IMG/VR virus record: IMGVR_UViG_3300034118_000910
Location: 1 to 28,899 of that record
DNA length: 28,899 bases
Direction: 5' to 3' (one strand)
Source of the DNA: a virus
Shown here piece after piece: positions 1,443 through 25,196 of this stretch (position 1 is its first letter; each line of letters opens with the position of its first letter). A model generated the notes under the pieces. It did not search any database. It was not told the DNA's origin and worked only from the letters and a program-made list of their open reading frames with translations. Made by a program: the position numbers and the translations under genes.

Positions 1443-2452
1443 GAGCCCCCACGAAAGCAGAGTGGGCGTCTGCTGGCCGGTGGGTCAGGGATCACGCTCC
1501 CGCGTTCACCGTGTCCTTCGTGACGTTCTCGGCGCTCTGGGCCGCTGTCGTGGTGGCGTGCCTGACGCTCTACGTCTGGGACAGCCAGTTCTACTCCAGC
1601 CTCGCGCCGCCCGGCATGGAAGCCAGCTTCATGGCTGCGGGGATCGTGTTCAGGACGTTCGTCATCTTCGGCGGTCTGGCAATCGTCTGGATGAAGACCA
1701 ACAAGCTGAACCCCGCTGCCGGCCGCACGCTGCGCTTCATCTGGGTTATGGGGCTTGTGGCTTGCGGTGTCGCGGCGCTCGGCTTCGTCACCGAGGGCAA
1801 TGACTACCATTACCGCAAAGGCGCCGCGATCACGCAGACGGAAAGCGCATCGACGGAAAGCGCCGACACGATCATCGCGCGTGCCGAAAAGGAAAAGGTG
1901 GCGATCCGCGCCGACCGTGACCAGTTGGTAGCAGCCGCGCGTCAGTCGATGAACCTTGTCCTTGATGACGGCAACAGCAAGAATGATGACGTCTCGAGCT
2001 ACGAGAAAAACATCGCGCAGTACCAGACCGAGGCGCAAGCCAAGCTGGACGAGCAGGACGCGAAGATTGCGGCCGCAGAGACAGACCGCCTCGGCGCACG
2101 TCAGCAGGCGACGGAAGCCGCCATTGGCGATCCGGCCTTGCCCGCCGTGTTCCAGGCTCCCGCGCGCTATTTCCCCGGCTTCGATGGCGTGACCTTCCGG
2201 GACATGTTCGCGCTGTTCTGGGTAATCCTGCTCGAGGCGTGCGGCTCTGTCGGCGCGCAAGCCTTGCTTGCGGTCCAGATGGGTATGAGCAAGCGCAAGG
2301 AAGCGCAGGAAAACGGCGCAAAGGGCGGGCGCACCACATCGCGCCGCCGCCTGATCGAAGACATGCGCAAGGCGCGAACCGAAACCAAAGCCGATCTCTC
2401 GGAGGACAAGAACGATGGCGATAGAAATTCTCCGCCGAAGGCCGCCGAGTGA
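1439..2452 (+). CDS. Polytopic membrane protein with central coiled coil, 337 aa
   Basis: I chose the TTG at 1439 because it overlaps the preceding stop and has AAGGGG about 9 bases upstream; the open frame before it runs inside the previous gene. Hydrophobic segments lie near residues 25-47, 60-82, 95-115 and 265-290 (DMFALFWVILLEACGSVG). Between the third and fourth is a long charged region of about 130 residues (AQYQTEAQAKLDEQDAKIA) that looks coiled coil. The C-terminus is basic then acidic. The last 38 bases overlap the endolysin gene. The layout (three helices, large extramembrane coil, one helix, charged tail) is clear; the function is unknown. It could be a virion-associated or lysis-accessory protein. 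Confidence 0.75.
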   Translation: MRAPTKAEWASAGRWVRDHAPAFTVSFVTFSALWAAVVVACLTLYVWDSQFYSSLAPPGMEASFMAAGIVFRTFVIFGGLAIVWMKTNKLNPAAGRTLRFIWVMGLVACGVAALGFVTEGNDYHYRKGAAITQTESASTESADTIIARAEKEKVAIRADRDQLVAAARQSMNLVLDDGNSKNDDVSSYEKNIAQYQTEAQAKLDEQDAKIAAAETDRLGARQQATEAAIGDPALPAVFQAPARYFPGFDGVTFRDMFALFWVILLEACGSVGAQALLAVQMGMSKRKEAQENGAKGGRTTSRRRLIEDMRKARTETKADLSEDKNDGDRNSPPKAAE

Positions 2453-3581
2453 GCTGTATCCGTCGAAGGCCGCGCTAGACCTTATCCGGCACTTCGAGGG
2501 GCTAAGCCTCACGGGATACCTCGACCCTATCGGCATCCCGACCATCGGATACGGCAGGACCGGGCCGGTCGCGGTTGTCGGCAAGCGCATCACGCTCGCT
2601 GAAGCCGACGCACTGCTTGACGAAGACGTGGCACGACACGCGCAGATTGTGCGGGACCAGATCACAGTGCCGCTCACGCAAGGCGAGTTCGATGCCCTCG
2701 CAAGTTTGGTCTTCAATCTAGGCTATATACCCAAAAGCCTGAAAGCTTGCCTTAATGGCGGCGTGACAGACGCGGGCAAGGTGATGACGCCAGGCAGCTA
2801 CGGCTCGGCGCTGTTGCAGTTCCCGCGCAACTGCCGCGCAGGTGGCAAGCCGCTCAAGGGCCTCTACCGGCGAAGGCTGGCTGAGGCGTGCCTGTTCTGC
2901 GACCTCCCGTGGGAGAACGCCTGTTCGATCAGCGTGGTCCAGCTATCTGTCGATGACGCTGGCAAGATCGACACGAACGAAAGCACGTCTCTGGAAGACA
3001 CCCTCATGCGTGCGCGGCTCGACACGTCGAAGCCGCCCGACACGTCTCACATTCTCAAGAAACAGTGGTCCGAACTGATCGCGAAACAAGCTGAACCCCC
3101 GACCTCTGTGATTGAGGCGGAGGGCGATGCGGAGCCAGCGGAGAAGCAAGCCCCCCAGCCCAGCCCCCCTCCGCTGGTATCTGCGCCCGTTCCTGCGCCG
3201 CCGAGTGGTCCCGTGGTCGCAGGGCCGGCGGTGGTGGTCCCGGCTCCCCAGCCGCCACCGCCGCCGGTTAAGCCTGCGCCGCCGCCACGTTTGCCAGATC
3301 CGCCCGTTCCCATCGGCCAACAGACCGGCGCTGTAGACGCTGCGAGAAAGTCGGAGGAGTGGTCATCATCTGCCAAGTCGATGATCTACTCCCGCCGATT
3401 TTGGGGCCTTCTCCTGGTTGTGGCGGGCCGTGTGTGGATGCTCAAAACTGGCAGCAACGCGGTTCTTGGGGCTGTTTCTGATCCGCTCGTGATGGAGATG
3501 TTCTCAGGCTTCATGGTCATGGTGATCGGGGAAGCCGTCCAGCACTGGGGCGAACGCAAAGCGACACGGCCTCTCAAATGA
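2415..3581 (+). CDS. Endolysin: GH24 (T4-type) lysozyme with proline-rich linker and C-terminal membrane hairpin
   Basis: Peptidoglycan muramidase for host lysis. Residues about 17-165 match glycoside hydrolase family 24: E28, D37 and T43 in HFEG...YLDP...TIGYG have the 9- and 15-residue spacing of the T4 lysozyme triad (Glu11, Asp20, Thr26). Residues about 210-310 are a very proline/alanine-rich linker. After it come two hydrophobic segments near 329-344 and 362-378, flanked by basic residues, resembling a small holin-like hairpin. At 388 residues it is more than twice a plain GH24 endolysin. There is no N-terminal signal or SAR segment. ATG 2415 follows GGAGG at 2401-2405. The spanin gene follows with an ATGA overlap. 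The enzyme call is firm; the role of the membrane hairpin is inferred. Confidence 0.92.
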   Translation: MAIEILRRRPPSELYPSKAALDLIRHFEGLSLTGYLDPIGIPTIGYGRTGPVAVVGKRITLAEADALLDEDVARHAQIVRDQITVPLTQGEFDALASLVFNLGYIPKSLKACLNGGVTDAGKVMTPGSYGSALLQFPRNCRAGGKPLKGLYRRRLAEACLFCDLPWENACSISVVQLSVDDAGKIDTNESTSLEDTLMRARLDTSKPPDTSHILKKQWSELIAKQAEPPTSVIEAEGDAEPAEKQAPQPSPPPLVSAPVPAPPSGPVVAGPAVVVPAPQPPPPPVKPAPPPRLPDPPVPIGQQTGAVDAARKSEEWSSSAKSMIYSRRFWGLLLVVAGRVWMLKTGSNAVLGAVSDPLVMEMFSGFMVMVIGEAVQHWGERKATRPLK

Positions 3582-5440: not shown

Positions 5441-6171
5441 TCCCCACCTCCTTCCGCCAGCGCCTGAAGTGCGGCGCGTGTTGAACTGACGCCAAGCTCG
5501 CGCCTGATCCATTTCTTCACAGTCTCTTGGTGAACGCCCACGGTCGTGGCGATCTCGGAAACCTTCATCCCAGATCGAGCAAGCCGCATGATTTCTTTGT
5601 GGTCAGCGACAACCCTTGTGTTCACTCCCTGCTCGGCTGGCGTTGCCCAGCGGCAATTCCCAGGCTCGTAGTTGCCGTTATTGTCGATGCGGTCGATGGA
5701 ATGCTTGGGTGACGGTTTAGGCCCCATGTCATCGGCAAAGCATTGTCCGCCGCTGCGAACGCCGTCGCCGTTCAACCAGCGATCACAGACCGTGATCCCG
5801 CGTCCACCATATTGATGGTAATTGCGGTTGCCGACTTCATAGCATCGACGCCGGATGTGCTGATGCGTGTAATAGAGCGGGTGATAATGGTCGAACTGTT
5901 CAGGGTTTCGCACCTTGAACGGATGGTTCTGACAGCCGCAGCTTTTGGTGTTGCCAGTCCGCAGGTGGTTTGCAGATATGGCCTTCTCCACTCCGCAGTC
6001 ACACTTGCAATTCCAGAACGCTACAGGCCCATGTTTCTGCATTCGGCTTGGGGCTTTTTCGATGACTGTAAGCATTCCAAACCTGATGCCACGCAGGTCA
6101 GGTGTCCACCTTCCGCTCGGAAGCTGCATCATGGGCGCCCGCTGGCGAGTTGTTGTTTCGCTGGCGCTCAT
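5437..6171 (-). CDS. Zinc-ribbon / HNH-type endonuclease with C-terminal HTH
   Basis: Residues about 28-82 carry a Cys cluster (NCKCDCG ... NTKSCGC), a zinc-ribbon-like part seen in phage HNH/AP2-type homing proteins. Residues about 120-190 have the pattern GGRGITVCDRWL ... FADDMG ... SIDRIDNNGNYEPGNCRW, typical of phage HNH-related endonucleases. The C-terminus (RLARSGMKVSEIATTVGVHQ, then ETVKKWI) looks like a helix-turn-helix. The three-part build of 244 residues suits a free-standing homing-type endonuclease or DNA-binding nuclease. Both ends overlap neighbours by four bases, so it is fully embedded in the operon rather than an obvious intruder. Catalysis and target are not determined here. 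Confidence 0.85.
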   Translation of the reverse strand: MSASETTTRQRAPMMQLPSGRWTPDLRGIRFGMLTVIEKAPSRMQKHGPVAFWNCKCDCGVEKAISANHLRTGNTKSCGCQNHPFKVRNPEQFDHYHPLYYTHQHIRRRCYEVGNRNYHQYGGRGITVCDRWLNGDGVRSGGQCFADDMGPKPSPKHSIDRIDNNGNYEPGNCRWATPAEQGVNTRVVADHKEIMRLARSGMKVSEIATTVGVHQETVKKWIRRELGVSSTRAALQALAEGGGE

Positions 6172-6440: not shown

Positions 6441-6556
6441 GGTTTCCTCCTCACAGGCCACAGCCACACCGCCAGGAACATCACCACGCCCACAGCAGCC
6501 ATCGGCGCGGCGAGCATGACGCTTTCATAGAGGAGGTCGATCTCGGCGGGGGTCAT
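6437..6556 (-). CDS. 39-residue single-pass membrane protein
   Basis: ATG 6556-6554 overlaps the stop of the methyltransferase gene by four bases and its TGA overlaps the GTG of the next gene by four bases, so it fills exactly the space between them. The peptide starts MTPAEIDLLYESVMLAAPMA, continues with a membrane helix (AAVGVVMFLAVWLWP) and ends with basic VRRKP, predicting a cytoplasmic C-terminus. The function is unknown. Confidence 0.6.
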   Translation of the reverse strand: MTPAEIDLLYESVMLAAPMAAVGVVMFLAVWLWPVRRKP

Positions 6557-7785
6557 GCTGCCACCTGCAATGCTTCGACCATCTGGATGCGCTCACCGAT
6601 CCAAGCCATCACGGGGACGGCCATGCTGTTGCCCAGCGCCTTGTAGCGGGGGCCATCAGCGGCGGGCTTTCCGCGATGGCTGATCAGCGTGTAATCGTCG
6701 GGGAAGCCTTGGAGGCGCTCGCATTCACGGGGCGTGAGGCGGCGCACGGCAGAGCCGCGCAGGAAGCCGTGGCCGGTGTCTTTTGTGCCGATAGGATCAG
6801 CGACAGGGCCGTGCGTGGGGTCTTGCCTGGCGTTGAAGAGAATGGGGACGATGTAAGCGTCCTTTGTATCGCCTGATCGCGCATTGTGGCCGGCCGGCGT
6901 GTCGGCGCCGTTTTGCATTGTCGGCATGATGTCAACGTGCGGGATGGCAACCAGAGGCGTGCCCCTGCCCGTTCCATCTTCGCTGGCGTCGAAGCCATCG
7001 GCGCGGAGAGCGTGAGCTACATCGAAGCCGCACCTTTGGGATGGAACGAATAGCCCCCCCCCATTCAAGGCGTGCTGGTCTTCAAGGCCTTGCTTGTCGC
7101 CAAAGGCTGCATTGAGCGTAGGCGCGACATCTGCGGGCCAGCCGACTAATCTAACGTCTTGGGCGTCTTTGCCGCCGCCGCCTTCAGTGCGTGCGCTAAT
7201 TGTGGGGGCAGCTCTTTGCCCCGCTTCCCGGCGCGGCGGAGAATGCCCTTGCAGGCTGTGGCGCTCAAAAAGAACCGCTGCGGCACGTCGCCAGTCTCCA
7301 GCACATCCGACAACGAACACACGGCGGCGGCGCTGTGGTACTCCGAAGAACTGAGCGTCAAGCACTCGGTAGGCGAACCCATACCCGAGTTCGACCAGGC
7401 CCCCGAGAATGGAACCAAAGTCCCGTCCTCCAGCCGACGACAGGACGCCGGGGACGTTCTCCCAAACCAGCCACTTGGGCCGCAGTCGTTGAGCCAGCTT
7501 AAGATACTCAAGCGCCAGGTTGCCACGCCCGTCAGCCAATCCGCCTCTGAGGCCGGCGACTGAGAAAGACTGACAAGGTGTTCCTCCGACCAAAAGGTCG
7601 ATTGGGTCATACTCGCCTGTTTTGATCGTGGTGAAGTCGCCATGCAGCGGAACCTTCGGATAATGAGCGGCCAGCACGGCGCGCGGGAATTTGTCGATTT
7701 CGCTGAAGAATGACGGACGCCAGCCGAGGCCATGCCAGGCGACCGTCGCGGCTTCGATGCCAGAGCAGACGGAGCCGTATCTCAC
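6553..7785 (-). CDS. DNA (cytosine-5-)-methyltransferase
   Basis: SAM-dependent C5-cytosine methyltransferase. The 410-residue protein shows the family motifs in order: motif I GSVCSGIEAA near the N-terminus, motif IV GGTPCQSFS with the nucleophile Cys71, motif VI WENV with Glu109, motif VIII QRRRRVF at 151-157, motif IX RRLTPRECERLQGFPDDYT, and motif X YKALGNSMAVPV. Between VIII and IX lies a long, low-complexity target-recognition-like region with GFDASEDGTGRGTPLV, a feature I associate with phage-borne relatives. The start is GTG 7785-7783, overlapping the upstream stop. No partner restriction enzyme is evident, so self-protection against host restriction is the likely role. Sequence specificity cannot be read from the window. 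Confidence 0.95.
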   Translation of the reverse strand: MRYGSVCSGIEAATVAWHGLGWRPSFFSEIDKFPRAVLAAHYPKVPLHGDFTTIKTGEYDPIDLLVGGTPCQSFSVAGLRGGLADGRGNLALEYLKLAQRLRPKWLVWENVPGVLSSAGGRDFGSILGGLVELGYGFAYRVLDAQFFGVPQRRRRVFVVGCAGDWRRAAAVLFERHSLQGHSPPRREAGQRAAPTISARTEGGGGKDAQDVRLVGWPADVAPTLNAAFGDKQGLEDQHALNGGGLFVPSQRCGFDVAHALRADGFDASEDGTGRGTPLVAIPHVDIMPTMQNGADTPAGHNARSGDTKDAYIVPILFNARQDPTHGPVADPIGTKDTGHGFLRGSAVRRLTPRECERLQGFPDDYTLISHRGKPAADGPRYKALGNSMAVPVMAWIGERIQMVEALQVAA

Positions 7786-8546: not shown

Positions 8547-8830
8547 GCGGACACCTTCTTGCGATTGGAGCGGGCCTTGCTGACCGTGTTGATCAGCGTC
8601 CGCATTGCCTGTCGTGACGGGGCGAGAGCGGCGAGCATGTCGTCTGCCCAATCAGCCGCTTCCTGAGCGCCGACGAATTTCTCGGACGGCAGGAAGTCGT
8701 CCAGCCGATCCATCTCGGTTTGGATCTGATCGGCAAAACGGAGGAGCTGGCCTTCCAGCATGTAGGCGCGGTCATCAGCTTCATCGCTTTCAGAGGCGCG
8801 ACCGAAGATGGGATGCTCGGGGCGGCTCAT
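8543..8830 (-). CDS. Small helical phage protein, 95 aa
   Basis: ATG 8830-8828 overlaps the upstream stop by four bases. It has a polar acidic N-terminus (PIFGRASESDEADDRAYMLE), a helical centre (LLRFADQIQTEMDRLDDFL) and a basic C-terminus (SKARSNRKKV) that could bind nucleic acid. No family is recognised. It lies second in the 13-gene minus-strand chain, so it is expected to be expressed early with its neighbours. Confidence 0.7.
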   Translation of the reverse strand: MSRPEHPIFGRASESDEADDRAYMLEGQLLRFADQIQTEMDRLDDFLPSEKFVGAQEAADWADDMLAALAPSRQAMRTLINTVSKARSNRKKVSA

Positions 8831-9186
8831 GACGACACCCGTTCGTCGCGGGCCAGATCGCGGTAATAATCGGCGCGGGCTTCAGCCTCGGCTTCGCGCG
8901 CATCGCCCACGAACACTTCGTAAGCGCGCCATGCGTTTGCGTTGATCTCCGCACGTTCAACAGCCGTGGACAGGGCGTCGGGGAGAGCTTCGTATGCGGA
9001 TGCCGTGAACAGCGCGGCTTCGGTGCCTGACATTTCGTCCGTCAGGCTCTCGATCATGCCGTCAAACACGCGGCGGACCTTGCGGGCTCCAAGCGCGTAG
9101 TAGGCGTCATCGATCGCGGCGAGGATCGACTTTCCAGCTTTGTGGCCAGCTTCGCAGATCGCGTCGGCTTCTTGTTCGTGGGTCAT
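8827..9186 (-). CDS. First gene of the minus-strand chain; unknown, 119 aa
   Basis: I choose ATG 9186-9184 because AAAGGAGC lies about 8 bases upstream; an in-frame earlier ATG has no such site. The protein is helical, soluble and rich in alanine and glutamate (THEQEADAICEAGHKAGKSI ... DAREAEAEARADYYRDLA). It is the leader gene of a run of thirteen overlapping genes and sits about 40 bases downstream of an inverted-repeat promoter-like element at 9225-9254. The function is unknown. Confidence 0.72.
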   Translation of the reverse strand: MTHEQEADAICEAGHKAGKSILAAIDDAYYALGARKVRRVFDGMIESLTDEMSGTEAALFTASAYEALPDALSTAVERAEINANAWRAYEVFVGDAREAEAEARADYYRDLARDERVSS

Positions 9187-9224
9187 GTGGTCAGCTCCTT
9201 TGTTGTCCCCATATGCGCACATGA

Positions 9225-9254
9225 TCTATCATTCTGCAAGCCCCTATTTGCGCT
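9225..9254 (-). promoter_or_regulatory. Promoter/operator-like element, copy 1, for the 4618-9186 operon
   Basis: On the plus strand this reads TCTATCATT, CT, GCAAGC, CCCTA, TTTGCGCT. It is nearly identical to 11486-11514, which sits at the same place ahead of the other minus-strand operon. The core GCAAG-N6-TTTGC is an inverted repeat. Read on the minus strand, TTGCAG (9239-9234) could be a -35 hexamer, with CATATG 18 bases later as a poor -10. That would put the start of transcription shortly before the AAAGGAGC ribosome site of the 8827-9186 gene. The conservation is seen directly; the promoter/operator role is inferred. Confidence 0.55.
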
Positions 9255-9263
9255 GGCGTGCAA

Positions 9264-10211
9264 TTATTTTCGCTCCGTCGTCCCGTCCATCCTGCGGCGC
9301 AGGGTGGTCGAGAAGCCTCGTGATTGGATCAAAGGCTTGTCGCGTTCGCGGCGGCGCTTTTGCTGTCCAGATAGTCCGCGCAATCTTCGACCCTTTGCGG
9401 ACAATTTATTGTCGTGCGTCCACGCCTTTTCAAAGTTGCAACCCAGGTGCGATGCGCGGCAATTTGCGAAGGTGTGTCCCCCGCCGTTTGCAAGGGCGTG
9501 TTCGTGGTCGATACTGAGTGAACGCCGATCAGGCCGCTTTGCATCAGGTGGAATGCTTTTCCCGCAAATGTAGCAGGCCCAGCCGTCTCGTTCGACAACG
9601 GCCAGCAAGTCAACCTTGGGCTCAAAGTGTACGCCCAACTTTTTGGCGCGCGCGCGGTGGATGCCGTCTGCGTGCTTGAGCCGGTTCACTAGGATGCTGC
9701 GGCGCTTCGCGTTCTGGCAATGATCAGAACAAAAGCGCGATTGATTTTTGCTGGTAGCTGATCCGCACCATTGACATGGCGGGTGGATTGGCCCGTCTCC
9801 CAATTGCGACCCCCTTCTGTCACGATAGTAGTGCGTCTCACACTTAAAGGCGTGACCACTGCGAACCTTTTTGGTGCAGCCAGCAACCGTGCATAATCCG
9901 TCCACCGCCCTCGGCTTGTCGGGGCCGCGCCAGTCCCCACCATTGATCGCTCTTAGATAGTGCTTGTTACAGGCGACCTCAGCGCTATTGGGTATGCGGA
10001 TAATGGCTGGTCTGTCGCAATGTTCGTTAGCGCATTTGGCAAACCCGAAGGCATAACCTTTGCCCTTTCGTTCCTTTTTTGGCGCAGACGCAAGAGGATT
10101 GCCGTGACGGCGCAGGCGAAGATAATGCGAGTTGCAAAGCCCTTTTGAGACGACATGCATCGCCCGTTCACATCCAGGTACAGAACACGCGGGCTTGGGA
10201 AGGTCAGCCAT
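9264..10211 (-). CDS. HNH endonuclease with tandem zinc modules
   Basis: The 315-residue protein has three similar Cys/His modules: C9-x4-C14...C26-x2-H29, C60-x4-C65...C81-x2-H84 and C107-x4-C112...C124-x2-H127, each ending in HY-x-R and a glycine. A fourth Cys cluster follows (C146-x2-C149 ... C161-x3-C165). The C-terminal third is an HNH nuclease: CYICGKSI ... LSIDHEHALANGGGH ... ANCRASHLGCNFEKA. ATG 10211-10209 follows GGGAG. The N-terminus overlaps the ninB end by eight bases, so it is third in the recombination operon. A structure-guided DNA nuclease in recombination or a homing-type enzyme are both possible. The HNH call is firm; the zinc modules rest on residue spacing. Confidence 0.88.
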   Translation of the reverse strand: MADLPKPACSVPGCERAMHVVSKGLCNSHYLRLRRHGNPLASAPKKERKGKGYAFGFAKCANEHCDRPAIIRIPNSAEVACNKHYLRAINGGDWRGPDKPRAVDGLCTVAGCTKKVRSGHAFKCETHYYRDRRGSQLGDGPIHPPCQWCGSATSKNQSRFCSDHCQNAKRRSILVNRLKHADGIHRARAKKLGVHFEPKVDLLAVVERDGWACYICGKSIPPDAKRPDRRSLSIDHEHALANGGGHTFANCRASHLGCNFEKAWTHDNKLSAKGRRLRGLSGQQKRRRERDKPLIQSRGFSTTLRRRMDGTTERK

Positions 10212-10602
10212 CGGCAAGCTCCCGCGCGTGAAACTTGATGCCGTGCTGTGCGCCGAATGCCTCGATGATTTCGAACAGGTCCGACATTTCCTGCGTCGAT
10301 AAGTTCGCCGTTGATCTGCCAAGCTGGACGAAGCCTGTGCCTTCGATGTTCGGCACAATGCGCATTTCCTGCTTGAGCGCGGCCATGAAGACGAGCTTCC
10401 AATCAGCGAGTGACAGGCGCTGGCCATGCCAGAGCATTTGCGTCTGAACGTCTGTGATCATTGCGTGCAGTCTGTCGTTTTGCGGCAGCGTGCGTTTCGG
10501 GCCTTGGAACGTGACGCGCGTTTCCCTCGGCGCTCGACGTATCCAGTCTATCGCCTTGGCGCGTGTCGCATCGTTCCAGAGAACCAGAAGCGCCCGACCC
10601 AT
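10204..10602 (-). CDS. ninB: NinB-family recombination protein
   Basis: The 132-residue product matches the lambda NinB (Orf) family in length and layout: an N-terminal beta-rich part with WIRRAPRETRVTF and KRTLPQNDRLHAMITDVQTQ, then LADWKLVFMAAL, PNIEGTGFVQLGRSTANLS, and the C-terminal EMSDLFEIIEAFGAQHGIKF. The family binds single-stranded DNA and helps phage recombination by assisting annealing proteins. Its ATG shares one base with the stop of the RecT-like gene upstream, a functional pairing seen in other phages. The identification is from family pattern recognition. Confidence 0.88.
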   Translation of the reverse strand: MGRALLVLWNDATRAKAIDWIRRAPRETRVTFQGPKRTLPQNDRLHAMITDVQTQMLWHGQRLSLADWKLVFMAALKQEMRIVPNIEGTGFVQLGRSTANLSTQEMSDLFEIIEAFGAQHGIKFHARELADG

Positions 10603-11447
10603 CAGCCTCGCGCCCCTGCCTCGTCAGTCCATTCAACCGTCTCGCCCAGCTCATCCCACCGCTTCTGGAACTCGATACGGTAAAACGCGCGCATCATGTG
10701 GGGCTTGCGAGCCTTCAGCGCCTTCTTGTCTGGCGTTGTCCACCATGCTTTCAGATCCTCGCGGGTGGAGTATTCTTCCATCTCCTCAAGCATGACGGGC
10801 CACTCAGGTTGCGTGGTCTGGTCAACCTCTTCGCCGTCCAGTTCAGGAGGAGGCGGCTCCCGAGGCGTTTCCGCCTGTCCAGGCTCCTCAGGAGCCGCCA
10901 GTTGCCCACGCACAGGGGTTGGGGGTATGCGCGTGGGTTGTTCAAAGTCGATGACCTCTTCTGGGGCGTACATGCCGCCGAGGGCGCCGGGGTATGCTGT
11001 CCTGACGCCTTCGCTGATCACGCGAGCGCGGAGCATCTGGCGCGGAAACTTCTTCCACATATCCTTGCCGCCGAGGCCAGCCATGCGGGCTCTGGGCATG
11101 TCCCAATCGATCTCGACGGGCTCGCATTGTGAGTGCGAGAAGATCGCCGCGACACGCGTGTCGGACAGCTCCGTCCACTTGACTTTGCCGCCTGCCTGCT
11201 GGAAACGCGCAAGCATTGCCTCCGCTTTCAGCGACGGCTTGCCTTGGATCACTGAATAATCCTGCATCGCGCTGGCGACGTGGCGTCCCTCGGCCTCTGC
11301 CATCAGCATCAGGGCGACGACCTGGTCCACCTGCGTCACGCCGAACAGGCGAGACTTGGCGATCGTCTCAGCCATGCGCATGATCTCGTCAAAGCTGCGG
11401 CGCTGCGCCGGCGCTGCATGTTCTACTTTCACCAACTCGTTAGCCAT
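10602..11447 (-). CDS. RecT-like single-strand annealing protein
   Basis: Residues about 15-170 follow the RecT-type pattern found in phage recombination operons: an N-terminal helix (SFDEIMRMAETIAKSRLFG), VVALMLMAEAEGRHVASAMQ, QGKPSLKAEAMLARFQQAGG, then LGGKDMWKKFPRQMLRARVI and EGVRTAYPGALGGMYAPEEV. The C-terminal 100 residues are proline- and acid-rich and probably flexible. I choose ATG 11447-11445 because AAGGAG lies 8 bases upstream; ATG 11453 would be too close. NinB follows with a one-base overlap, supporting the role. No partner exonuclease (RecE or lambda Exo type) is evident. The RecT label is by pattern and context and is less firm than ninB. Confidence 0.68.
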   Translation of the reverse strand: MANELVKVEHAAPAQRRSFDEIMRMAETIAKSRLFGVTQVDQVVALMLMAEAEGRHVASAMQDYSVIQGKPSLKAEAMLARFQQAGGKVKWTELSDTRVAAIFSHSQCEPVEIDWDMPRARMAGLGGKDMWKKFPRQMLRARVISEGVRTAYPGALGGMYAPEEVIDFEQPTRIPPTPVRGQLAAPEEPGQAETPREPPPPELDGEEVDQTTQPEWPVMLEEMEEYSTREDLKAWWTTPDKKALKARKPHMMRAFYRIEFQKRWDELGETVEWTDEAGARG

Positions 11448-11485
11448 CTGCATTGCTCCTTGTGCGCCGACACTATGCCCCGTCG

Positions 11486-11514
11486 TCTATCATTGCGCAA
11501 GCTATCTTTGCGCT
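11486..11514. promoter_or_regulatory. Divergent promoter/operator-like element, copy 2, between RecT operon and YdaS-like gene
   Basis: The plus strand reads TCTATCATT, GC, GCAAGC, TATC, TTTGCGCT, matching 9225-9254. The centre is an inverted repeat, GCGCAAG-CTATC-TTTGCGC. Its two arms supply -35-like TTGCGC hexamers in both directions. Leftward, TTGCGC (11500-11495) is followed after 17 bases by CATAGT (11477-11472), four of six matches to TATAAT, 25 bases before the RecT-like start. Rightward, a -10 is poor. The regulator at 11549 is the obvious candidate to bind here. The repeat is seen; binding is inferred. Confidence 0.6.
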
Positions 11515-11548
11515 AGACACACGCCCAATCTTGTGGCAGACGTCGCGT

Positions 11549-11758
11549 ATGGACGAGAAGACATTTCACCGCGCATTAGGCAATCCGCAGCAGTTGGCGG
11601 AAGCGATCGGCACAACCCCGGACATGATCTATGTTTGGCGGCAGAGACGAACCGTCCCCGCCAAATGGGTGGCGAAGGTGTCGGATGCGACAGGCGTTCC
11701 GCCCTATGACATGCGCCCGGATATTTTCATGCGGCCAAAGCGCAAGGTAAGCGCATGA
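11549..11758 (+). CDS. YdaS/Cro-like HTH regulator
   Basis: The 69-residue product is one helix-turn-helix domain: LGNPQQLAEAIGTTPDMIYV followed by WRQRRTVPAKWVAKVSDATG and VPPYDMRPDIF. The QLAEAIGTTPDMIYVWRQRR stretch is a Cro/YdaS-type HTH, and the VPPYDMRPDIF ending is a common signature in small phage regulators of this family. It starts at ATG 11549 with no ribosome binding site, so it may be leaderless, as with many phage repressors. It is transcribed away from the RecT operon, with the inverted-repeat element between them. It probably represses one or both minus-strand operons; whether it acts as repressor or Cro is not decided by sequence. Confidence 0.82.
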   Translation: MDEKTFHRALGNPQQLAEAIGTTPDMIYVWRQRRTVPAKWVAKVSDATGVPPYDMRPDIFMRPKRKVSA

Positions 11759-12003
11759 TGGGCCGGTTGCGCATCGGTTCGCTGTACCTTGGGGGGCGTG
11801 ACAGCGGCGGAGGCATGATGCTCGCCTTCTGGCATCCGCGTAACGAAGGCACTTGGCATTGGTCGGTGTCGATCCAGAAGCCCAACGGGCGACCTCACCG
11901 CACGCCGAAAACGCAACGCGCCTATCAGTGGCACGACACCTATTGGTTGCCGTTCAAGCGCCAACTGGTTGTGTCGTTTCAGGATTGGCACAAGCGCAAA
12001 TGA
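11755..12003 (+). CDS. Small phage protein with aromatic-rich motif, 82 aa
   Basis: ATG 11755 overlaps the regulator stop (ATGA). The protein is rich in Trp, His, Tyr and Arg: FWHPRNEGTWHWSVSIQKP, then QWHDTYWLPFKRQLVVSFQD. Small proteins with a WHWS...WLPF...QDWH pattern occur in other phages as hypotheticals. It looks like a compact beta-rich fold, but no function is known. The overlap with both neighbours places it in the same transcript. Confidence 0.72.
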   Translation: MMGRLRIGSLYLGGRDSGGGMMLAFWHPRNEGTWHWSVSIQKPNGRPHRTPKTQRAYQWHDTYWLPFKRQLVVSFQDWHKRK

Positions 12004-12221
12004 CCTCCGAAATCGAGCGCCGCGCTGATGAGCTGAGAGACGTAGCCCGCGCCTGCAAGACGCTGAACGACTTTGCAAAGGCCACCGGGTTCAGTATGGA
12101 AATCGCGAGGCATGCCCGAACCGTTCTCAGCCTGGATCTTCCCGACGCCAAGCTCCAAGCCGGGAAGCGCACGGAAGCGCGATCTGTTCCCAAGCCGCAA
12201 AAGGCAAAGCCGAAAGCTTGA
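12000..12221 (+). CDS. Small basic helical protein, 73 aa
   Basis: I choose ATG 12000, which overlaps the previous stop by four bases. The N-terminal two-thirds is helical (SEIERRADELRDVARACKTL, NDFAKATGFSMEIARHAR) with a weak HTH-like look (DFAKATGFSMEIARHARTVL), and the end is strongly basic (KRTEARSVPKPQKAKPKA), as in small DNA-binding proteins. It is the last gene before a 196-base non-coding stretch. A DNA-binding role is plausible but not proven. Confidence 0.68.
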   Translation: MTSEIERRADELRDVARACKTLNDFAKATGFSMEIARHARTVLSLDLPDAKLQAGKRTEARSVPKPQKAKPKA

Positions 12222-12417: not shown

Positions 12418-12669
12418 GTGGCTCAAACATTTAGAAAACGATATGGCGGCAACGAACAGGAATTGCGCGAGTTTGCGCGCCTGCTTTGCATTGAGAAGGG
12501 CGTGGAATACCGAGGCGTTTCCATATTCCAGATGGTCAGGGAGCTGTCTGGCATCCCCGACATTGCCGCTGGCGATGCATGGCAATGGATAGCTGACAAG
12601 CGCCGCGCCGCTCGCCCTGTCGAGAGCTTTCATATAACGCACGATCCGCTGACAGGGTGGCCGCTATGA
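12418..12669 (+). CDS. Small phage protein of unknown function, 83 aa
   Basis: I choose GTG 12418 because GAGG lies 7 bases upstream; TTG 12403 is the alternative in the same frame. The product begins AQTFRKRYGGNEQELREFAR and has a mostly helical, mixed-charge body, then GDAWQWIADKRRAARPVESF. It is followed with a four-base overlap by the DUF1376 replication gene, so it is probably co-expressed with it. No domain is recognised. A replication accessory role is inferred only from its neighbour. Confidence 0.65.
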   Translation: MAQTFRKRYGGNEQELREFARLLCIEKGVEYRGVSIFQMVRELSGIPDIAAGDAWQWIADKRRAARPVESFHITHDPLTGWPL

Positions 12670-14037: not shown

Positions 14038-14241
14038 ATGAAACGACTGCGCCTCACAACTGTTTTGAACCGCATTCGCGCCGAGTGCGACCGTGTCGGG
14101 ATTGATCGTTACGCCCAACGCTGCGGCGTCACGGAGCAATACCTGTATTCAATCCTCGCAAGCAAACGCCCGCCGACGAAAACCGTGCTGGCGCCGCTGG
14201 GGATCAAACGCGAAACCATTTACGTCGATATCGAACACTGA
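14038..14241 (+). CDS. Small HTH DNA-binding protein (Cro-like), 67 aa
   Basis: The protein is essentially one HTH: RIRAECDRVGIDRYAQRCGV then TEQYLYSILASKRPPTKTVL, where RYAQRCGVTEQYLYSILASK has the helix-turn-helix pattern. The basic N-terminus (MKRLRLTTVLNR) and short C-terminal tail fit small phage DNA-binding regulators. Upstream is a TTGACC/palindrome promoter-like site. It lies between the DUF1376 pair and a DnaA-like protein, so it may time replication genes. It could also be an excisionase-like or architectural DNA-binder. Confidence 0.75.
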   Translation: MKRLRLTTVLNRIRAECDRVGIDRYAQRCGVTEQYLYSILASKRPPTKTVLAPLGIKRETIYVDIEH

Positions 14242-25044: not shown

Positions 25045-25196
25045 TGGATAAATCTCTGCTCGACATCATCAACGATTTCGCAAGCTGGCGGGGCAACCTG
25101 TTCACCCTGGCCGCGCTTCTTATTGCGCAGAATACGGAACTGGTTAAACAGCGCCTGATCGATGCGGGCTTTCAGGAAGCAGCGGATGCGCTCTAA
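25044..25196 (+). CDS. 50-residue protein
   Basis: ATG 25044 shares its first base with the preceding stop and its TAA 25194-25196 shares a base with the following ATG. The peptide is helical and amphipathic (MDKSLLDIINDFASWRGNLF, TLAALLIAQNTELVKQRLID) with a central mildly hydrophobic stretch. It may be a small virion or assembly peptide. Its real existence is supported by perfect packing between neighbours. Confidence 0.6.
   Translation: MDKSLLDIINDFASWRGNLFTLAALLIAQNTELVKQRLIDAGFQEAADAL

Follow-up and report, generated by a model that had tools for sequence, protein, structure and literature searches.

Results

Two copies of one element precede two leftward operons

The window, by which we mean the whole stretch of DNA analysed, is a phage contig from IMG/VR, 28,899 bases long. 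It carries TCTATCATTNNGCAAGC twice, at 9225-9241 (site B) and at 11486-11502 (site A), each copy just upstream of a leftward gene set: operon A, a recombination cassette, lies between the sites, and a string of small genes starting at 9186 lies to the left of site B and includes a C5 DNA methyltransferase-like protein (6553-7785). The features are listed below, with OR, OL, PRM and PL used as in phage lambda.

8827..9186, minus strand: first gene of operon B, 119 aa, function unassigned, with homologues after OL in the cI-bearing G016 and G019
9225..9241, minus strand: candidate operator/promoter core of site B, OL-like (minus strand GCTTGCAGAATGATAGA)
9264..10211, minus strand: HNH endonuclease-like protein, operon A (weak Pfam HNH match; PHROG 1271, E 1.5e-23)
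10204..10602, minus strand: NinB, operon A (Pfam PF05772, E 3e-34)
10602..11453, minus strand: RecT-family annealing protein, first gene under site A (domain search)
11486..11502, minus strand: candidate operator 1 (A1) and promoter core of site A, OR/PRM-like (minus strand GCTTGCGCAATGATAGA)
11501..11517, plus strand: second operator-like 17-mer of site A (A2), overlapping A1 (GCTATCTTTGCGCTAGA)
11549..11758, plus strand: Cro-like HTH protein of the YdaS family, 69 aa, proposed reader of both sites (PF15943, E 6e-9)

A sequence-only reading of this DNA had reported a duplicated promoter/operator at these two places, and the copies are indeed there, site B (TCTATCATTCTGCAAGC) and site A (TCTATCATTGCGCAAGC) being identical at 15 of 17 positions. 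No other pair of 17-mers from the two intergenic stretches matches better; this value was equalled by 2 of 2000 dinucleotide-shuffled pairs, and when the shuffle test was rerun on the same pair, none of 400 reached 15/17. The window holds no third copy within two mismatches, and the only further match, at 25069, has three. The sequences flanking A and B are unlike each other. Site A is better described as two overlapping 17-mers, 11486-11502 and 11501-11517, the second of which agrees with A1 at 13 of 17 positions (a value equalled by about 1.7% of shuffles) and is replaced by the allele GCTATCATTTAGGTGGA in some relatives; the centres of A1 and A2 are 15 bp apart, which is tight for two dimers.

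Other parts of the element as it had been drawn did not hold. The inverted repeat GCGCAAG-N5-TTTGCGC, described as clean, has arms of only 6 bp (GCGCAA/TTGCGC) and is found at site A alone, and we rejected it as the operator because the outer arm is lost in several relatives. We found no support for -35 hexamers on both strands, and the outer TTTGCGCT block, which stands at N4 in one copy and N5 in the other, is not in a fixed register. A tandem direct repeat, AWGATAG, flanks the -35 at site A and is absent at site B; confined to site A, it was dropped as a general feature.

Several neighbouring genes deserve mention. Across the window family the NinB position holds either NinB or another protein, and in L003 NinB and the adjacent HNH gene seem to be fused in frame into a chimera, with one open reading frame (2440-2976, minus strand) that begins as NinB and then turns into the C-terminal half of the HNH protein. 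A small protein encoded at 12000-12221 (plus strand) has no PHROG match and looks HTH-like by eye; its gene is conserved to the right of cro across the whole mosaic family. Further right, 14038-14241 (plus strand) encodes a possible HTH protein of 67 aa whose matches are all weak, HTH_3 below the cut-off and the PHROG 35 repressor at E 0.005, with no Pfam family match. The leftward operon of G001 (L002, L042, L043) encodes, by eye, PAPS-reductase-like and ParB-like proteins, while G012 has an integrase in operon B; together with the methyltransferase-like protein of the window (6553-7785), these look like exchangeable cargo at one place.

The protein beside site A is a Cro homologue

The 11549 protein scores 36 bits against PF15943 (cut-off 30), and its best sequence match in the PDB is the Cro protein 3bd1 of Xfaso 1 (E 0.001). 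An AlphaFold (AF2) model with a mean pLDDT of 77 gave the same structure as the top fold match, at a TM score of 0.69-0.74 and a modest E of 0.02. The Cro proteins of Xfaso 1 and Pfl 6 (PDB 3bd1 and 5w8y) are thus the closest solved relatives in both sequence and fold, at about 30% identity, and the protein is a Cro homologue with the sequence and fold of a Cro/YdaS HTH.

The element is conserved wherever this YdaS occurs

We looked for the element in 12 other viral contigs with this YdaS, which with the window make 13. Site A is present in 13 of 13 and site B in all nine contigs, the window among them, that extend far enough, with two copies only, at the heads of both operons; this conservation has limited power, since the carriers are closely related to one another (YdaS 88-97% identical). 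The conserved core, read on the minus strand, is CTTGC-NNN-ATGATAGA (CTTGC-NNN-ATGATAG), that is, a -35-like TTGC and a box in the spacer. The central NNN differs between A and B inside one contig and varies independently while the rest stays fixed, so the pair is not a fresh duplication. Several contigs have another sequence in place of the outer GCGCAAA arm, CACCTAAATGATAG at site A and GCCAGAAATACAC or CCAGAAATACAC at site B.

The genes behind these control elements are exchanged. The first gene under site A encodes RecT, ERF (PF04404) or a Rad52-type protein (PF04098), and several different, unrelated genes stand first under site B; exchanged gene modules with constant control elements between them point to a function for the elements. 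RecT-bearing relatives that do not have this YdaS do not have the motif.

A viral scan for CTATCATNNNGCAAGCTATC, seeking a cI-bearing relative with the same operator, returned the family only, plus three chance matches in unrelated coding sequence (L077, L078 and L081). Two other apparent carriers, L029 and L026, were also judged chance, the former lying in an unrelated phage, at a terminase gene. The GTDB genomes scanned yielded nothing related to YdaS or RecT, and named phages gave only distant YdaS and RecT matches, with terminases at most 55% identical.

Three further sequences were noted during these scans. At position 5770 of G001, a weaker operator-like 17-mer overlaps open reading frames. 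In the rightward gene region of G007, a perfect 17-bp palindrome, GCTAGCATTTCGCTAGC (12590-12606, locus L045), lies just upstream of a 51-aa minus-strand open reading frame; it resembles the operator 17-mers, and none of the other contigs scanned had it among their top matches. Finally, the block ACGGCAAGACAGAGCGAAAATAATTGCACGCC occurs about 30 bases upstream of site B in L002 and other site-B contigs; in some it forms the end of the HNH gene, and in those where a different gene stops short of it, it seems not to be coding.

The element overlaps predicted leftward promoters

At both sites the sequence places the element across the -35 and the spacer of a predicted promoter:

11495..11500, minus strand: -35-like TTGCGC of the leftward promoter at site A
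11472..11477, minus strand: -10-like CATAGT of the same promoter, 17-nt spacer, with a conserved adjoining ATGCC block
9234..9239, minus strand: -35-like TTGCAG of the leftward, PL-like promoter at site B
9211..9216, minus strand: weak -10-like GCATAT of the same promoter, 17 nt from the -35

The TTGC-type -35-like hexamers proposed earlier are thus in place 17 nt from their -10s, but the -10 hexamers are weak at both sites, including CATAGT, which had been called fair. Since an automatic sigma-70 consensus scan picked up neither promoter, their assignment rests on conservation and comparison; for the 11549 gene, no rightward promoter was identifiable.

In relatives the leftward promoters consist of TTGNNN, a spacer of 16-17 nt that contains the operator and a weak -10, and this format is kept across phages while the operator sequence changes. 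The -35 is TTGACC in L057, TTGACA in L075, TTGACT in G019, TTGTCA in G016 and TTGCAA in L076, and at site B it is TTGCAG or TTGCGT. CTTGC also recurs as the -35 in L070 and L076 (AAATARRKCTTGCAA), phages with other operators, and since phages with different operators have in part the same surroundings of the -35 (AAATAGG..CTTGCAA) and in part the same leader, GGGGACAACAAAGGAG, CTTGC is probably at least partly promoter. ATGATAGA, which lies some bases upstream of the operator position in the relatives' spacers, is on these comparisons the likeliest operator-specific part of the element.

Relatives with other Cro proteins carry other operators at the same two places

For comparison we turned to members of this mosaic family whose regulators differ from the window's. 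Where cI and cro form a divergent pair, an operator of 15-17 bp adjoins cro and recurs behind cI, where it precedes the leftward operon. Seven contigs with other Cro proteins show five operator sequences, each different from the window's and in the same two places. G020 pairs GTCAGCATATGGCTGAC with GTCAGCACATGGCTGAC (format GTCAGC-N5-GCTGAC), G016 pairs CTTTGCAGAATGCAAGG with CATTGCATTATGCAAAG and TCTTGCATTGTGCAAGA (TTGCA-N3-TGCAA), G019 pairs GTTCGCCTGAAGCTAAC with GTTCGCTCGTGGCTAAC, and L075 pairs AATACGTTATGTATGGT with AATACGTTCTGTATTGT, while L070, L074 and L076 have GTGCACTAGGTGCAC at both places (GTGCAC-TAG-GTGCAC); L071 looks like the same phage as L070. Operators in the relatives are symmetric at 5-6 of 6 arm positions; the window's, at 3-4 of 6, are poor palindromes and in this differ from most of them. 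When the 17-mer common to OR and OL was set against shuffles for the window, G016, G019, L070, L075 and L076 (G020 and L074 were left out), P ranged from 0/400 to 0.0125, with the weakest support for G019, whose best pair was a shifted one.

The genes downstream also correspond. In G016 and G019, OL is followed by a homologue of the gene after site B (8827..9186), and in L070, L075 and L076 the corresponding gene resembles the one behind site B in L008/G007. The same leftward gene occurs in L053, which is cut off, and in L057, where a Cro-like gene directly adjoins it with no cI between. The operators of L053 and L057 have the same GTGCAC-N3-GTGCAC format with 1-2 mismatches, and the Cro proteins of L057 and L076 are identical at 38 of 60 positions; similar Cro proteins with the same operator format indicate that the operator sequence varies with the type of Cro. 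The two thus go together in L057/L076 as they do in the 13 ydaS contigs, all with the motif, and in the RecT-only relatives without it. No operator pair was detected ahead of the site-B gene homologue in L054, L055 and L060, where this gene closely follows another gene.

No recognised repressor is encoded between the sites

A cI gene is not found between the operator regions of the window family; a RecT/ERF/Rad52-NinB-HNH cassette stands there, with the HNH-like gene (9264..10211) at the end of the cassette that occupies the cI slot. No HTH_3, HTH_31 or S24 repressor scored over the cut-off in G000, G001, G005, G007, G008, G011 or G012. Since the two ends of G001 (41,194 bases) carry genes that are neighbours in the window, G001 is apparently complete. 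As far as the known repressor families go, the window family has probably truly lost cI.

Discussion

The results show the same candidate operator beside cro and ahead of a leftward early operon, and we conclude with high confidence, from the comparison with relatives, that sites A and B represent an OR/OL-type pair as in lambda. Site A would correspond to OR, with a leftward promoter at the place of PRM, and site B to OL with PL. This pair, with the cI between its members replaced, had been missed by the sequence-only reading. The proposal made there, that each leftward operon is preceded by a copy of one promoter/operator with the neighbouring HTH protein as its possible reader, gains support from the operator pairs of the relatives. 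By the same comparison, a single regulator over both operons appears well supported, and YdaS is its probable identity as the reader of sites A and B.

Could the element be something other than an operator for YdaS? A -35 with a favoured spacer might simply be repeated as a promoter block for host RNA polymerase, with no phage operator in it, and both the recurrence of CTTGC as a -35 with other operators (L070/L076) and the constant spacing to the -10 fit such a block. We consider it unlikely, however, because the ATGATAGA box hardly varies in any member at either site, is missing where the YdaS type is missing, and corresponds to a spacer that in relatives holds the local Cro/CI operator. It is slightly less likely still that a CII-type activator or another phage HTH protein, such as the product of the 12000 gene or the 14038 protein, binds the element in place of YdaS. 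The 12000 gene is conserved right of cro throughout the family, and the AWGATAG repeats flank the site A -35 as activator sites can, but the same gene is present alongside quite different operators in G019, L070, L074, L075 and L076 and therefore cannot account for the motif, site B lacks the flanking repeat, and the 14038 protein matches no Pfam family.

The location of both sites at mosaic boundaries, where neighbouring genes change, could also suggest a recent segmental duplication or a recombination joint with no regulatory role. The unlike flanks of A and B, the independent evolution of the three central bases within an otherwise fixed core, and the position of the copies exactly at the predicted promoters make this very improbable. 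What we consider probable is a lambda-type switch in which YdaS most likely binds both boxes and cI has been replaced by the recombination cassette. Weighing most against this reading are the limited symmetry of the window's sites and the near relationship of the contigs with the same element.

We hypothesize that each site is a leftward promoter in which the -35 (TTGC) is followed by the ATGATAGA box inside the spacer. YdaS would most likely bind both ATGATAGA boxes, and from there repress or time operon A (annealing protein-NinB-HNH), operon B (accessory genes) and its own gene. With the recombination cassette in place of cI between the two sites, the recombination genes would be driven from the cI promoter position.

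In phage lambda, paired operator regions lie on either side of the repressor gene, with three operators each. The window resembles lambda OR/OL in that candidate operators, placed over predicted promoters, stand next to the gene of a Cro homologue and before the leftward early operon, and relatives G012 and G019 have, like lambda, an integrase in the leftward operon. Unlike lambda, the window carries a recombination cassette in place of cI between the sites; it has a single clear operator at OL and an overlapping pair at OR, and their dyad symmetry is poor.

In the prophage CP-933P, the part of Cro at PRM, PR and PL is played by a YdaS (PMC8630535). The YdaS-YdaT regions of CP-933P and Rac (PMC8630535, PMC9986795) share with the window a YdaS-family Cro analogue divergent from a leftward operon and a second promoter (PL) with the same operators. 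Their operator sequence, in contrast, is unrelated to that of the window, and CP-933P keeps the repressor PaaR2 and YdaT, neither of which was recognised in the window. The kind of switch is thus already known, and the variant is unusual.

More tentatively, and at somewhat less than even odds in our estimate, this is an immunity region that has kept both operators and Cro and exchanged cI for an interchangeable cassette, so that Cro would govern the recombination genes from the PRM position and by default the phage would be lytic, while remaining sensitive to the CI of a homoimmune prophage. Some family members may be temperate, given the G012 integrase in operon B, and YdaS or another protein would then have to maintain lysogeny. 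The arrangement suggests a route by which a temperate phage may lose its repressor, the recombination genes taking the cI slot while the operators and Cro stay. The family as a whole forms a natural series, in which the same two control positions hold different operators matched to different Cro proteins, and which could help to derive the rules of recognition between Cro and its operators.
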